NCBI RefSeq assembly: GCF_000371785.1
Contig: NZ_AQUI01000002.1
Coordinates: forward strand, 1,529,276 to 1,593,275
Direction: 5' to 3'
Source of the DNA: Actinopolyspora halophila DSM 43834
GTDB taxonomy: Bacteria > Actinomycetota > Actinomycetes > Mycobacteriales > Pseudonocardiaceae
Length of the DNA stretch: 64,000 nt
Shown: piece by piece, positions 4,116-43,911 of the stretch
Numbering within the stretch: the first letter of the stretch is position 1
How the letters are laid out: each line of letters starts with the position of its first letter
Made by a program: the position numbers and the translations under genes
Notes under the pieces: generated by a model
The model's input: the letters and a program-made list of their open reading frames with translations, nothing else
Databases searched by the model: none
Told to the model about the DNA's origin: nothing

Positions 4116-4175
4116 GCCGTGCCCCACTCCGCCGGGCGGCAGGTCGCTCCCGCCCGGCGGAGTGTCCGGCACGGC
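4116..4175 (+). terminator. Strong stem-loop terminator after the secreted protein
   Basis: Immediately after the stop, CACTCCGCCGGGCGG (4125-4139) pairs perfectly with CCGCCCGGCGGAGTG (4150-4164). The helix is extended by GCCGTGCC (4116-4123) with GGCACGGC (4168-4175). No T-run follows, as is usual in high-GC actinomycetes. Confidence 0.8.
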
Positions 4176-4300
4176 CGGGGTCGGTCCGTGCCCCAGGAGA
4201 AAACTGTGGGTGCACGTTCGGGTACTCCCCGAGTCTGTCCTATGCGGATCGAAGATAGCGTGGGAGGGTCACTCGGGGTCGGAATTCGGAGAAAACCCAC

Positions 4301-5095
4301 ATGTCGGAAGAACGAGTCGATTCCGGAGGACGGCCTCGGCGGAGTAAGGGGGTGGATTCCCGCCTGCGCCGCCTCCACGCGCTGGACTCGGTGCTGTGCG
4401 GGGCCTCGTGGCTGTCGGTGATCGAACCGGAGGTGGAGGCGCTGGGAGAGCTGGTGGGAACCGGTGCGGTGTGCTTCGACATCGGCGCGGCGTACGGGAT
4501 GTACAGCTTTCCGCTGGCTCGTCTCGTCGGCCCCGCGGGCGAGGTTCACTCCTTCGAGCCTCAGCGCAAGCCGTACCGGATTCTCGCGGCAGGAGCGAGG
4601 CTGGCCGGGATGCGCAACATGCGCGTCGACCGCGCCGCGTTGGGAAAACACCCCGGAACGCGCGTCCTCGCCGTCCCCACCCGGTTCGGATTCCCGGTCC
4701 ACGGACACGCGCACGTGGTTGACGACGTACGCGTTCCGGAATCGGACGGTCTTTTCCGGGGAAAGCGTTCAGTTTCGAGTGAAACGTTCTCGGTGGACCG
4801 GATACGACGCACGCGCGGACTGGACCGGATCGATTTCATGAAAATCGATGTCGAGGGGTACGAGTCCTCGGTGCTGGAGGGGGCGGAGGAAACTCTGGAG
4901 AAATGTCGCCCGAAAATGTTGATGGAGATCGAGCAGCGCCATCTCACGCGGTACGGGACCGAGCCGGAGAAAATCACCGGATGGCTGCACGACCTGGGAT
5001 ACCGTGCCCATGTGCGGCACGGCGGAAAATGGGAACCCGTGGAACGGGTGACCGAGTGGAAACGGAACTACCTCTTCACGGCGCGGACGACGTGA
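4301..5095 (+). CDS. FkbM family SAM-dependent methyltransferase
   Basis: 264 residues. SAM-binding motif I is CFDIGAAYGMY (residues 58-68), followed by the acidic loop EVHSFEP and the FkbM signature FMKIDVEGYESSVLEGA near residues 180-197. The C-terminal EIEQRHL segment also matches the family. Members O-methylate sugars, polyketides or other natural products; the acceptor cannot be inferred, since no glycosyltransferase or biosynthetic gene is adjacent. An SD-like GGAG lies 9 nt before the ATG. The gene is monocistronic and convergent with the sulfur operon. Confidence 0.88.
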   Translation: MSEERVDSGGRPRRSKGVDSRLRRLHALDSVLCGASWLSVIEPEVEALGELVGTGAVCFDIGAAYGMYSFPLARLVGPAGEVHSFEPQRKPYRILAAGARLAGMRNMRVDRAALGKHPGTRVLAVPTRFGFPVHGHAHVVDDVRVPESDGLFRGKRSVSSETFSVDRIRRTRGLDRIDFMKIDVEGYESSVLEGAEETLEKCRPKMLMEIEQRHLTRYGTEPEKITGWLHDLGYRAHVRHGGKWEPVERVTEWKRNYLFTARTT

Positions 5096-34363: not shown

Positions 34364-35494
34364 GTGGTGGATCCCCGTGGTGGATCGGAGCGTTGCGACA
34401 TCGTGGACGCACAACTCGAATTCCCCCTGCGCCTGCATCGGAGGCTCGCGCCGAACACGGGGGAGAACTTCTGCTGGTCCCCCTACTCCGTGGTGAGCAC
34501 CCTCGGGTTGCTCGCCTCCGCCGCGCGCGGCAACACCCGCGCGGAGATGGCGCACGCCCTGCGCGCCGAGCCGGACGAGGACCTCACCGAACGACTGGAG
34601 GAACTGGCGGGGCGGACCGTCACTCCCACGGACGAAGTCGATTTCGCGGTGGCCAACCGGCTGTGGGCGGACGAACGACTCCCGCTGCGGGAGGAGTACC
34701 GGCGCCGGATCTCCGACCTGCCGGGGAGCGAGGTGCGCACCACCGCGTTTCGCGAGGCCCCCGAGCGGGCGCGGCAGGCGATCAACACCGATGTCGCGGA
34801 GGTCACGCGGGGCTTGATCCCCGAGCTGGTCGAGGCAGGAACGATCGACTCGGACACGGTCGCGGCCCTGGTCAACGCGCTTTATCTGAAAACCCCCTGG
34901 AACAAGGCGTTCGAGGAAGGTGACACCGGCCCGAAACCGTTCCACGGGCCCGCGGGGACCGGGCCGGTGCCCACCATGCGCGTGAACGGCCTGCTGGGAT
35001 ACGCCCGTCAGGACGGTTGGCAGGTGGTGCGGTTGCAGGCGCGGGGCGCGGTGGAGGCGCTCGTGCTGCTGCCCGACGAGGAGTTGGACAGGGCCGAACC
35101 CGCGCTCGATCACGCGCGGCTGCGCCGCCTGGTCGATGCCCCCGAACCGAACCAGGTGGAGCTGCTGCTGCCGAAGTTCGAGGTGACGGGCTCGGCCGAG
35201 CTCAACGACCCGCTCGCCGCTCTCGGAATGCGCGAGGCGTTCACCCCGGCGGCCGACTTCACCGAGCTGACGGACGAGCCCCTCCGGATCTCCACCGCGT
35301 TGCACGAGGCCGTGCTGCGGGTGGACGAGCACGGTCTGGAGGGGGCGGCGGCCACGGCGGCGATGATGCGCCTGACAGCTTTGACGGAGGAGCCGGAGCC
35401 GATCCGGGTGGAGGTGGATCGCCCGTTCTGGTTCCTGGTCCGGCACGCCGACAGCGGGGTCGTCTACTTCCTGTCCAGGGTCGTCGCCCCGTGA
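34364..35494 (+). CDS. Serpin family protease inhibitor
   Basis: 376 residues (GTG 34403 is an alternative start). Serpin landmarks are FCWSPYSVVSTLGLLASAARGNTRAEM, ALVNALYLKTPWNKAFEEGDT, LLPKFEVTGSAELNDPLAALGMREAF and the C-terminal DRPFWFLVRHADSGVVYFLSRVV. The reactive-centre loop hinge EGAAATAAM (about 326-334) is Ala-rich, as in inhibitory serpins. The scissile bond probably lies around Met-Arg-Leu-Thr (334-338), but the loop is a few residues longer than usual and P1 is uncertain. No signal peptide is visible, so it is probably cytosolic. Confidence 0.93.
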   Translation: MVDPRGGSERCDIVDAQLEFPLRLHRRLAPNTGENFCWSPYSVVSTLGLLASAARGNTRAEMAHALRAEPDEDLTERLEELAGRTVTPTDEVDFAVANRLWADERLPLREEYRRRISDLPGSEVRTTAFREAPERARQAINTDVAEVTRGLIPELVEAGTIDSDTVAALVNALYLKTPWNKAFEEGDTGPKPFHGPAGTGPVPTMRVNGLLGYARQDGWQVVRLQARGAVEALVLLPDEELDRAEPALDHARLRRLVDAPEPNQVELLLPKFEVTGSAELNDPLAALGMREAFTPAADFTELTDEPLRISTALHEAVLRVDEHGLEGAAATAAMMRLTALTEEPEPIRVEVDRPFWFLVRHADSGVVYFLSRVVAP

Positions 35495-41320: not shown

Positions 41321-41395
41321 GGGGCGGTAGCTCAGCAGGTCAGAGCAGCGAACTCATAATTCGTCTTGTCGTGGGTTCAAGTCCCACCCGTCCCA
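41321..41395 (+). tRNA. tRNA with CAT anticodon (tRNA-Met, elongator likely)
   Basis: Acceptor GGGGCGG (41321-41327) pairs with CCGTCCC (41388-41394) with one G-T. Anticodon loop CTCATAA (CAT), T-arm GTGGG-TTCAAGT-CCCAC. The first acceptor pair is Watson-Crick, which argues against initiator tRNA. tRNA-Ile2 (lysidine-modified CAT) cannot be excluded from sequence alone. Confidence 0.92.
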
Positions 41396-41800
41396 CCGAA
41401 ACAGCAGGACAGCGCAGGTGTGGGGACACCGGACCAAGATCGTCCCCACACTTCTACCACAGGAATCCCCTCGTTCGAGCGCGGTGAGCGACGAGACCCC
41501 CGCGGGGGTGCGCGGGGTTGTTGTCGCGTGAGCGTCGATGTCGGTGCCGAGTGAGCGATGCGGCCCTCCGCGGATCTCGGCCTCCCCGGTTGCTGCCGAG
41601 CGCGCAGTGCGCCGCTTTTCGCGGGTGGTGCCTCCCGTCCCGCCGAGCCTGGTGCGGAGTGGACGGACGAACCACACCTTGTGAATATTTTTCTAATTTT
41701 GGTTCTGTTTCGTTCCGAAGTGCCGCTGCTCGGGTGATTGGTTCAGCGAGAAAAGCTTCCGCGAAAGAAAAAAGGCCGGTGTGGTCATCTCGGGGAGACC
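41396..41800. other. Intergenic region with an AT-rich block
   Basis: No recognised gene. Positions 41678-41710 (TGTGAATATTTTTCTAATTT and following) and 41745-41775 (AGCGAGAAAAGCTTCC, AAAGAAAAAAGG) are markedly AT-richer than the rest of the window. They probably contain the promoter of the downstream small-gene locus, or mark DNA of different origin inserted after the tRNA. Confidence 0.45.
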
Positions 41801-41899
41801 GTGGAACAGTTGATCAATGTGCTGTTCCGGAGTGGCGAGCTCATCGGCGTAGTGGTTTCGCGGCTCTTGCGGTCGGATCCGATTCCCGTGAGCTCGTAA
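41801..41899 (+). CDS. Possible 32-residue amphipathic peptide
   Basis: GTG at 41801 is preceded by GGGGAG at good spacing. The peptide reads VEQLINVLFRSGELIGVVVS then RLLRSDPIPVSS and stops TAA. It could form an amphipathic or membrane-lying helix. Short length makes chance occurrence possible. It is the first ORF after the AT-rich block and is followed by two further small genes on the same strand. Confidence 0.4.
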   Translation: MEQLINVLFRSGELIGVVVSRLLRSDPIPVSS

Positions 41900-42083
41900 C
41901 CTGGGAGGAAGTGCGCGGCGATCTCCGTGGAGAAGCCGGGAGACGCCCCCGTTCTTCGGGTGCGATCCACAATGCTGTATCGATTCAAAGGGGGTCGAAC
42001 CCGATTCACGGGATCGACTGCCGCCAGCGCGCCTTCCGAGGGAAGGGAGGTGGTGTGCCGGCGATCGAATGGGAGCGACACCG

Positions 42084-42479
42084 ATGCACGATTTCGACGA
42101 GTGGCACCGGCTCGGTAAACATTGGCACGCCTATGTCGAACAGCGTGTGGGGAACGTGCCGTCCACACGCGCGGACCGGTTGCGTCGGCCCCCGGACCAC
42201 GTGTTGTCCAGCCCGCGTGCCGTGGCCGAATGGCTGTATCGGATGAAGCGCGTGTACCTGCCCGCCGAACCGGTGAAACTGCTCGGTGCCGGTGCGGGAT
42301 GGGGGACGGTCGGTGACGACCGCCATCTCGAGCGGGACCTGTTCGAGGACGAGCTGGTGGCCTCGTACGGCGACAGCATCTATCTCTCGTTCGCCTGTGA
42401 GCACGACCGGTTGGATCTCTGGGTTGAGGCGGTTACGACCGAGGACTGCTCGGAGGTGCTGCACCAGGAACAGGAGTAA
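42084..42479 (+). CDS. Hypothetical protein, coupled to zinc microprotein
   Basis: 131 residues from ATG 42084, with GGGAG 7 nt upstream. Features: MHDFDEWHRLGKHWHAYVE (Trp/His-rich start), AVAEWLYRMKRVYLPAEPVK, and an acidic strand-rich second half (DSIYLSFACEHDRLDLWVEAV). No membrane span and no family I recognise. Its TAA overlaps the ATG of the next ORF (TAATG), implying joint translation. Confidence 0.7.
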   Translation: MHDFDEWHRLGKHWHAYVEQRVGNVPSTRADRLRRPPDHVLSSPRAVAEWLYRMKRVYLPAEPVKLLGAGAGWGTVGDDRHLERDLFEDELVASYGDSIYLSFACEHDRLDLWVEAVTTEDCSEVLHQEQE

Positions 42480-42562
42480 TGCCGTCGATGTGCCCGAAAT
42501 GTGGTGGCCCGACGATTCCCCCGCAGGGGGACGGCCCACCGAAGTGTCCCAAGTGCGGGTGA
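42479..42562 (+). CDS. 27-residue double-CxxC zinc-ribbon microprotein
   Basis: Starts at the overlapping TAATG (a second ATG is at 42488). It contains MCPKCGGPTIPP and PPKCPKCG, two CxxC knuckles separated by 14 residues, enough for a minimal zinc ribbon. The regular cysteine spacing and stop-start overlap argue for a real gene. Role unknown; it may bind or stabilise the product of the upstream gene. Confidence 0.6.
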   Translation: MPSMCPKCGGPTIPPQGDGPPKCPKCG

Positions 42563-42735
42563 CGCGTTACCACGCGGGAGACCCACGGCGGCGACGGTTC
42601 CCGAGCGGGGACCCGCCGAACGGTAACCGCGGAGCAGACCACACGTCGCTTTCCGCGGTTACCGCGTGAAAGGGGCCACGCCCCCGAATCGGTCGGCTCC
42701 GGGGCCCGGGGACCCGGAATCCGCAGAACGGCGGG

Positions 42736-43911
42736 TCAGACCGCGGCCAGTCCCACGTAGTTCTCGGCGAGGGTCGTGGCCGCAGCGTCCGAGGAGCACA
42801 GGTAGTCGAACTGGGAGCGTTGCAACCGCCGGTCGTAGGCGGAGTCCGGTCCGTCGAAGCGGTGCGTCATCGAAGTCATCCACCAGGAGAAGTGCTGTAC
42901 CCGCCACACGCGACGCAGGCACTCCTGGGAGTAGGTGTCCAGCCCCGTGGTGCTGCCGTTGTGGTAGCGGTCGGTGAGCGCGCGTGCCAGCCGGTCCACA
43001 TCGGCCACGGCGAGATTGAGTCCCTTCGCTCCGGTGGGGGGAACGATGTGTGCCGAATCCCCGGCCAGGAACAGTCTGCCGTAACTCATCGGTTCGGTGA
43101 CGAAGCTGCGCAGCGCCGTGATGTTCTTGTCGACCACGGGACCTTCGCGCAGTTTCCAGTCCGGGGTGCCCAACCTGGTCTGCAGCTCTTCCCAGATTCG
43201 TTCGTCCGGCCACTGCTCGATCGGGTCCCGCGGATCGCACTGCAGATACAGTCTGCTCAATTCGGAGGAACGGAGACTGTGCAAGGCGAACCCGTTGGGG
43301 TGGTTCGAATAGATCAATTCCTCGCTGGACGGTGGCACTTCGGCGAGTATTCCGAGCCAGCCGAACGGGTAAACTCGTTCATAGGTGGTGCGGACCGATT
43401 CGGGAACCGTGTTCCGGCACACTCCGTGGAAACCGTCGCAACCGGCCACGTAGTCGCAGTGCAGTTCCCGCGTGCTGCCGTCGGAAGTGAAACGCACGAC
43501 CGGTTGTTCGGTGTCGATCCCGTCGACGGAGACGTCCGAGACCTCGTAGTACACCCGACCGCCGTCCCTTTCCCGGCGGTCCGCGAGGTCCTTGACCACC
43601 TCCTGCTGGCCGTAAACGGTGATGGTACGGCCACCTGTGAGCTCGCTGAGCGGGATGCGCAGGCGTTCCCCGTCGAACTGCACGTTCACACCGTGATGCG
43701 GATGCCCCTGCTTCTCCAGGCGCTCGGCCACATCTGCGTCCCGCAGCACGTCGACGGTGCCCTGCTCGAGCACCCCCGCCCGCACTCGTTGCTGCACGTA
43801 CTCGCGACCACGGCGTTCGAGTACGACGGAATCGATTCCCTGCAGATGCAGCAACTGGGACAGCAGCATGCCCGCCGGTCCCGCTCCCACGATCGCGACC
43901 TGGGTGCGCAT
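42736..43911 (-). CDS. pobA: 4-Hydroxybenzoate 3-monooxygenase
   Basis: 391 residues. FAD-binding GAGPAGMLLSQLL (residues 9-21), RRGREYVQQRVRAGVLEQGTVDVL, the DG motif AGCDGFHGVCRNTVP and GDSAHIVPPTGAKGLNLAVAD. These match PobA along the whole length. It hydroxylates 4-hydroxybenzoate to protocatechuate with NAD(P)H and O2. No pca genes or regulator are adjacent; inverted repeats upstream suggest control by a regulator encoded elsewhere. Confidence 0.95.
   Translation of the reverse strand: MRTQVAIVGAGPAGMLLSQLLHLQGIDSVVLERRGREYVQQRVRAGVLEQGTVDVLRDADVAERLEKQGHPHHGVNVQFDGERLRIPLSELTGGRTITVYGQQEVVKDLADRRERDGGRVYYEVSDVSVDGIDTEQPVVRFTSDGSTRELHCDYVAGCDGFHGVCRNTVPESVRTTYERVYPFGWLGILAEVPPSSEELIYSNHPNGFALHSLRSSELSRLYLQCDPRDPIEQWPDERIWEELQTRLGTPDWKLREGPVVDKNITALRSFVTEPMSYGRLFLAGDSAHIVPPTGAKGLNLAVADVDRLARALTDRYHNGSTTGLDTYSQECLRRVWRVQHFSWWMTSMTHRFDGPDSAYDRRLQRSQFDYLCSSDAAATTLAENYVGLAAV

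Follow-up and report, generated by a model that had tools for sequence, protein, structure and literature searches.

Gene order between tRNA-Met and pobA

We analyzed a window of 64,000 nt of Actinopolyspora halophila DSM 43834 (contig NZ_AQUI01000002.1, assembly GCF_000371785.1), which holds a short locus bordered upstream by a tRNA-Met gene and on the right by the converging gene pobA (Table 1). Between these borders lie a 131-codon open reading frame (ORF) and a 27-codon ORF, the start of the second sharing the sequence TAATG with the stop of the first. The original prediction had described this arrangement together with the CAT-anticodon tRNA, and all of it was found as claimed. It had also placed an AT-rich drop directly after the tRNA. 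The drop is there: positions 41678-41775 have 43.9% GC against 68.3% for the whole window, the single lowest value among all 98-nt stretches. Its position had been misjudged, since the low-GC block begins about 280 nt past the tRNA. At the corresponding place, the dip is comparable in one relative (L052, 0.449) and weaker in another (L051, 0.531), whose 131-residue protein is 97% identical to that of the window.

Table 1. Features of the locus, in window coordinates
Feature	Position	Strand	Basis
tRNA-Met (CAT)	41321..41397	+	ARAGORN and Rfam RF00005; upstream border of the locus
AT-rich block	about 41674..41776	.	GC scan of the window
32-codon ORF	41801..41899	+	Frame present in the window, not conserved
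Conserved DNA element, RATRCTGTAYCGAT	41971..41986	+	Found by pattern in 13/13 syntenic loci
131-residue protein, HWHAY family	42084..42479	+	ORF; invariant-residue alignment; no Pfam, NCBIfam or PHROG family
AGGAG Shine-Dalgarno sequence	42472..42476	+	Within the last codons of the 131-residue gene
Zinc-knuckle microprotein (predicted), MCPKCGGPTIPPQGDGPPKCPKCG, 24 residues	42488..42562	+	Conserved start; pN/pS; profile search
Stem-loop, 13-bp perfect inverted repeat	42621..42664	+	3' of the microprotein; z -4.27 for 42563-42690
4-hydroxybenzoate 3-monooxygenase (pobA)	42736..43911	-	TIGR02360, 556.9 bits (cut-off 538.7)

A third small gene, of 32 codons, had been proposed ahead of the pair. 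The ORF exists, yet its stop is lost in L051, its frame is shifted in L052, and no copy was found in the remaining ten syntenic loci; we do not regard it as a gene. On balance, the observations made in the original prediction are partly confirmed.

Ahead of the 131-residue gene lies a conserved DNA element. The alignment misregisters this element between two groups of loci, and we hence located it by pattern. The pattern ATRCTGTAYCGATY has a single occurrence in the 5.35-Mb genome. The element stands 97-118 nt ahead of the 131-residue gene, and 345-356 nt ahead of the peptide in genomes where that gene has been lost. It may be a promoter or operator; a scan for sigma-70-type promoters found none. 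A leader ORF starting MLYRF at the element was considered and rejected, its ATG being ATA in 3 of the 13 loci (L053, L054, and L056). Downstream of the microprotein, the stem-loop is likely the end of the transcript.

Elsewhere in the window, positions 34403-35494 (+) encode a full-length serpin (PF00079, 299.7 bits) with a homologue, 56-58% identical, in three relatives (L104, L108, and L109). Serpins are unusual in bacteria.

The predicted zinc-knuckle microprotein

The 27-codon ORF (42479-42562) contains a second ATG, at 42488, beside the first cysteine. This start is common to all 13 syntenic loci, whereas L053 lacks the 27-codon start, and L054-L056 have instead a GTG one codon earlier. 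Because the inner start is conserved and the outer one is not, we prefer a length of 24 residues, and the microprotein of the window is probably of this size. The AGGAG Shine-Dalgarno sequence precedes the conserved ATG by 11 nt, a distance fixed in 13/13 loci.

All 13 genomes compared have the microprotein at this site. Over its frame, pS is 0.639 and pN is 0.080, and the other two frames show the reversed pattern, with pS of 0.09-0.10 and pN of 0.25. These values indicate that the microprotein is coding and under strong purifying selection. A locus with conserved order and a drifting microprotein frame, the outcome named beforehand as contradicting the original prediction, is not what these genomes show; the frame is conserved.

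Two forms of the peptide were distinguished. In the four-cysteine form (A4), CPxCGGPxIPPQ...CPxCG, the predicted ligands C5, C8, C23, and C26 are invariant in the sampled set; in the His form (A3), CPxGGxHxPIPVQ...CxKCG, a histidine replaces one cysteine. Among 390 genomes, a profile of the four-cysteine form matched 18 at E <= 1e-9 and 28 at 0.01, the extra ten being weak or partial, and a profile of the His form matched 29 at E <= 4e-9 and 32 at 0.001. The predicted fold of the microprotein surrounds a single zinc ion coordinated by its four cysteines, as a zinc ribbon reduced to the metal site. Proteins this short are omitted from most annotations. A zinc peptide of 24 residues that is conserved and has a recurring family of partners would be a compact bacterial case of a bare metal site as a gene.

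Closest in kind are C(P)XCG micro-proteins from haloarchaea (HVO_0758, HVO_2753, and others), for several of which deletion mutants with phenotypes are described (PMC6562870). They are described as free-standing proteins, shorter than 70 residues, in which two C(P)XCG motifs are predicted to bind zinc (PMC6562870, PMC11241148, PMC10716476). The microprotein is alike, having 24 or 27 residues and CPKCG twice. Such proteins are reported to occur in bacteria too, at lower ratios, and some of the archaeal ones do not bind zinc (PMC11241148). Unlike the haloarchaeal proteins, the microprotein has only 24-30 residues in its conserved-start forms, one IPxQ loop that is conserved and joins the knuckles, a second form with His for Cys, a recurrent large partner gene, and an actinobacterial host. 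A similar spacing of knuckles is seen in Zn_ribbon_NUD (PF09297, NudC) and Auto_anti-p27 (PF06677), which are domains within larger proteins. Against PF09297, the partner peptide of L086 scores 24.9 bits (gathering cut-off 24.8) and the window peptide 14.6, which leaves the latter outside this family; against PF06677, L126 scores 25.0 (cut-off 24.1).

The HWHAY family and its link to the peptide

Searches of Pfam, NCBIfam, and PHROGs with the 131-residue protein returned only one PHROG hit, at a nonsignificant E of 0.17. Close copies of the gene are found in A. biskrensis (97%) and A. mortivallis (80%), and relatives at E <= 1e-10 in 45 of the 390 genomes of the window's bacterial family. At E <= 1e-5, a profile matched 28 of 397 genomes sampled across the order, all 28 in this same actinobacterial family. 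Nine positions are invariant in a 28-row alignment: H13, W14, H15, R32, P44, W50, D78, G96, and C122. We named this group the HWHAY family and defined its members by HWH near residue 13, the D78, G96, and C122 pattern, and a length of about 115-150 residues, all of which the 131-residue protein has. The protein represents an undescribed family with an invariant HWH motif. The gene is under weaker constraint than the microprotein (pS 0.457, pN 0.205; 7 genomes).

By sequence, the best E in PDB was 0.051 for the HWHAY family and 0.041 for the peptide, neither of them usable. An AlphaFold prediction for the 131-residue protein, from three sequences, had a mean pLDDT of 59, with five models that disagree and no fold or interface visible, and a Foldseek search with it gave nothing usable (best E 0.13). 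In the portion of open-licence PubMed Central text consulted, no description of either the peptide or its HWHAY partner was found.

We then followed the association of the two genes across the family. We fetched 40 of the 51 places with an HWHAY gene together with their flanks (618,858 bases) and ran a loose peptide pattern over them in six frames. The pattern matched 22 of the 40 loci, once each, on the same strand and directly downstream of the HWHAY gene, and it matched nowhere else in these bases; having been designed after viewing some of the loci, it has this absence of other matches as its control. The match starts 12 to 164 nt past the HWHAY stop in 21 of the 22 loci; in the remaining one (L066), the called HWHAY frame extends beyond it. 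The coupled large/small unit proposed for the window is thus supported, the two genes being adjacent in more than half of the fetched HWHAY loci. The other 18 loci have no peptide, among them whole subfamilies (L083-L085, L087, and L089), and for this reason the HWHAY protein can manage without it.

At the level of genomes, all 18 with the four-cysteine form at E <= 1e-9 also have an HWHAY gene. Of the 390 genomes, 31 have both genes, 16 have the peptide alone, 14 have an HWHAY gene alone, and 329 have neither one (P = 2e-23). Across 46 genera, the corresponding counts are 10, 1, 7, and 28 (P = 4e-5). The counts were entered by hand, and both associations are inflated by shared ancestry and by linkage. 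The two genes can also occur together unlinked: G021 and G401 have both, far apart on the chromosome. On an HWHAY tree of 40 rows, the loci with a linked peptide are scattered across deep branches, and seven changes are needed to explain where it occurs, of which well-supported branches force four. This pattern suits an old pairing with repeated losses, without proving it.

A third small cysteine-rich protein (CG...GMPCexCL) lies within about 260 nt ahead of the HWHAY gene in 6 of the 40 loci (L070-L073, L076, and L080); in L082, this protein (4120-4356) lies 1.4 kb ahead. In L075 (7665-8384, minus strand), the HWHAY frame continues into an HTH_31 domain, either a natural fusion or a stop loss, and this run-on hints at a regulatory role. 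DUF397-like genes stand within 8 kb of the HWHAY gene in 4 of the 40 loci and also near two distant HWHAH paralogues in the window's own genome. XRE-DUF397 pairs (Scr1/Scr2 and WhiJ/BldB relatives) are described as small, multi-copy actinobacterial pairs (PMC10364602, PMC6262351, PMC10294661), and in this the window pair is alike. Unlike them, it contains neither an XRE nor a DUF397 protein. At L170 (6516-8955) of the same genome, one distant HWHAH paralogue and a neighboring XRE-DUF397 pair are accompanied by a small protein containing the stretch PWGLRGMR, by an ATP-grasp protein of the MvdD type (PF21068), and by a PCMT methyltransferase (PF01135); the region resembles a graspetide cluster.

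A proposed coupled unit and its rivals

Quite possibly, if somewhat short of probably, the two genes form a unit in which the zinc microprotein serves the HWHAY protein as a small, detachable partner. A single transcript would start near the upstream element, end at the stem-loop, and carry the 131-residue protein followed by the 24-residue microprotein, whose ribosome-binding site would be the one in the last codons of the HWHAY gene. This coupled-unit reading is supported by the linkage in 22 of 40 HWHAY loci, the selection on the microprotein, the co-occurrence of the two genes, also where they are unlinked, the Shine-Dalgarno sequence at fixed spacing, the unique upstream element, and the terminal stem-loop. 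Counting against it are the 18 HWHAY loci with no peptide, five genomes with a His-form peptide and no HWHAY-like gene by profile, the poor structure model, and the promoter scan that gave no sigma-70 match. The microprotein (CPxCGG...IPPQ...CPxCG) would hold one zinc via its four cysteines and bind the HWHAY protein as a zinc subunit, stabilizing or switching it. It could act in trans, and it could outlast its linked copy, since an unlinked HWHAY protein would still need it. The sequences show that the microprotein is coding and under purifying selection, that the genes are linked, that the peptide is retained after loss of its neighbor, and that the two co-occur unlinked; we infer co-transcription, zinc binding, physical contact, and an effect of the complex. 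To this extent, the interpretation offered in the original prediction is partly supported.

The main rival to the coupled pair is a microprotein working by itself: it would be a minimal zinc ribbon that acts on a core protein or RNA, and the HWHAY gene would be a common but dispensable neighbor that lends a ribosome-binding site. We consider this rather unlikely, but the peptide does persist where its neighbor is gone. In six Actinopolyspora genomes (G003, G004, G005, G007, G008, and G009), the site between tRNA-Met and pobA has no 131-residue gene and retains the peptide, 81-85% identical; in one of these loci (L107), no complete tRNA was called, though the tRNA tail is present. Immediately upstream of the peptide, a C-terminal relic of the lost gene is still visible in its final 22 nt. 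Between L106 and L053, 18 of the 22 positions are identical, against at most 14 at 595 other upstream positions in L106; the relic is weaker in the subgroup of L104 and L107-L109 (14 to 17 of 22 against five loci compared). In a tree of a flanking gene, the six peptide-only genomes form one clade (98/98) and the outgroups have the 131-residue gene, so that a single loss explains its absence. The peptide remains under constraint in the six-genome clade (pS 0.363, pN 0.039), a point in favor of its acting alone. The same six genomes, unlike the four with the linked gene, have a divergent HWHAY gene elsewhere, 38-42% identical and with no double-CxxC peptide beside it. Such a gene is left unexplained by a peptide acting alone, as is the peptide in 22 of 40 HWHAY loci. 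The clade is a natural experiment that could separate the function of a subunit from that of a stand-alone protein.

Solitary copies in genus g26 also argue for a peptide acting alone. There the His form stands by itself in 13 loci, each time starting MDECP beside the knuckle and having 29-30 residues. We compared its core with the 27 in-frame upstream codons in each of two length classes (6 loci and 7 loci). The upstream codons are unconstrained (pS 0.106 and pN 0.178 in the 6 loci; pS 0.423 and pN 0.413 in the 7) and the core is constrained (pS 0.237 and pN 0.045; pS 0.361 and pN 0.135). Two sampled members narrowly exceed the Pfam thresholds of zinc ribbons that belong to larger proteins, which points the same way. 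In G390, an HWHAY gene is followed by the peptide beside a thiolase-like gene (named by eye), and the same thiolase-like gene also adjoins several of the solitary copies.

A first search had left 17 peptide-bearing genomes with no HWHAY match. A profile search of these found HWHAY-like sequence in 12: fragments in G377, G380, G391, G392, and G393, a longer sequence in G385, and genes in G395-G400. By this profile, no HWHAY-like gene was found in the His-form genomes G381, G382, G386, G387, and G018 (the last with a weak peptide match). Among 36 other genomes there were 2 matches, one of them (G384) in a genome already known to have the gene.

Extending the coupled unit, autonomous zinc genes of 24-30 codons that start at or next to the first cysteine might encode a detachable metal subunit shared in trans among unlinked HWHAY proteins and moving between chromosomes and AICE-type elements. 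We hold this to be doubtful; if true, the protein of such a gene would be hardly more than a metal site.

The original prediction also raised a toxin-antitoxin or phage-defense module, suggestions for which we found no support; PADLOC had no match for the window protein. With HWHAY as toxin and the zinc peptide as antitoxin, the order of loss would fit, as toxins decay first and antitoxins linger: the large gene is gone in the six Actinopolyspora genomes and fragmented in five others (G377, G380, G391, G392, and G393), where the peptide is kept, and some pairs lie on mobile elements. This reading is nevertheless improbable. The 18 of 40 HWHAY genes with no adjacent peptide would be intolerable for an antitoxin-dependent toxin, Pfam, NCBIfam, and PADLOC assign the 131-residue protein to no known toxin or antitoxin family, and the window pair belongs to the backbone of three genera, unlike an addiction module of patchy occurrence.

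Insertion at the tRNA flank had been suggested as well, and this idea holds for the flank and for related pairs rather than for the window pair itself. In seven genomes, the distance between tRNA-Met and the 131-residue gene ranges between 425 and 4183 nt, and L106 carries the tRNA tail a second time (17/18 nt), 3.1 kb downstream. The 3' flank of tRNA-Met is a variable insertion hotspot in the genus, and the pair lies beyond it. A recent insertion of the window pair was rejected: there is no duplicated tail, and the site is common to 13 genomes. The pair is old backbone, common to the window's genus and two others. Relatives of the pair do travel. Seven of the 22 linked pairs (L070-L074, L076, and L080) have an FtsK-like transfer gene no more than 8 kb away, and two of these loci (L073 and L076) run from the tRNA through an integrase, a small zinc protein, HWHAY, and the peptide to the FtsK-like gene; the FtsK Pfam score in L073 is 22.7, just below the cut-off of 24.

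These pairs with an integrase, an FtsK-like gene, and a tRNA border resemble AICEs, which are described as integrating mostly into the 3' ends of tRNA genes (PMC3218068). An element of this kind may have been the source of the window pair, but no part of one remains. That it is a relic of one once integrated at tRNA-Met, with a 131-residue gene that has no present function, is more improbable still. Unlike an AICE, the 16-kb window locus (L050) has no integrase or transfer gene and only a single tRNA tail, and both genes are under purifying selection. We also rejected an origin from a plasmid or phage: the window protein had no match among 72,556 plasmids or 50,697 phages, and the AICE-borne relative L073 had none in the plasmid and phage collections. 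A chance ORF in place of the microprotein, conceivable given that the frame is very short and that cysteine pairs arise by chance in GC-rich DNA, is practically negligible in the face of its frame-specific selection and strong profile matches.

The flank of tRNA-Asn looks like a hotspot too. In G008, genes are inserted between tRNA-Asn and tRNA-Met (L105, 1303-6833), and by eye they include what may be a toxin-antitoxin pair, along with a small protein that resembles a zinc finger.
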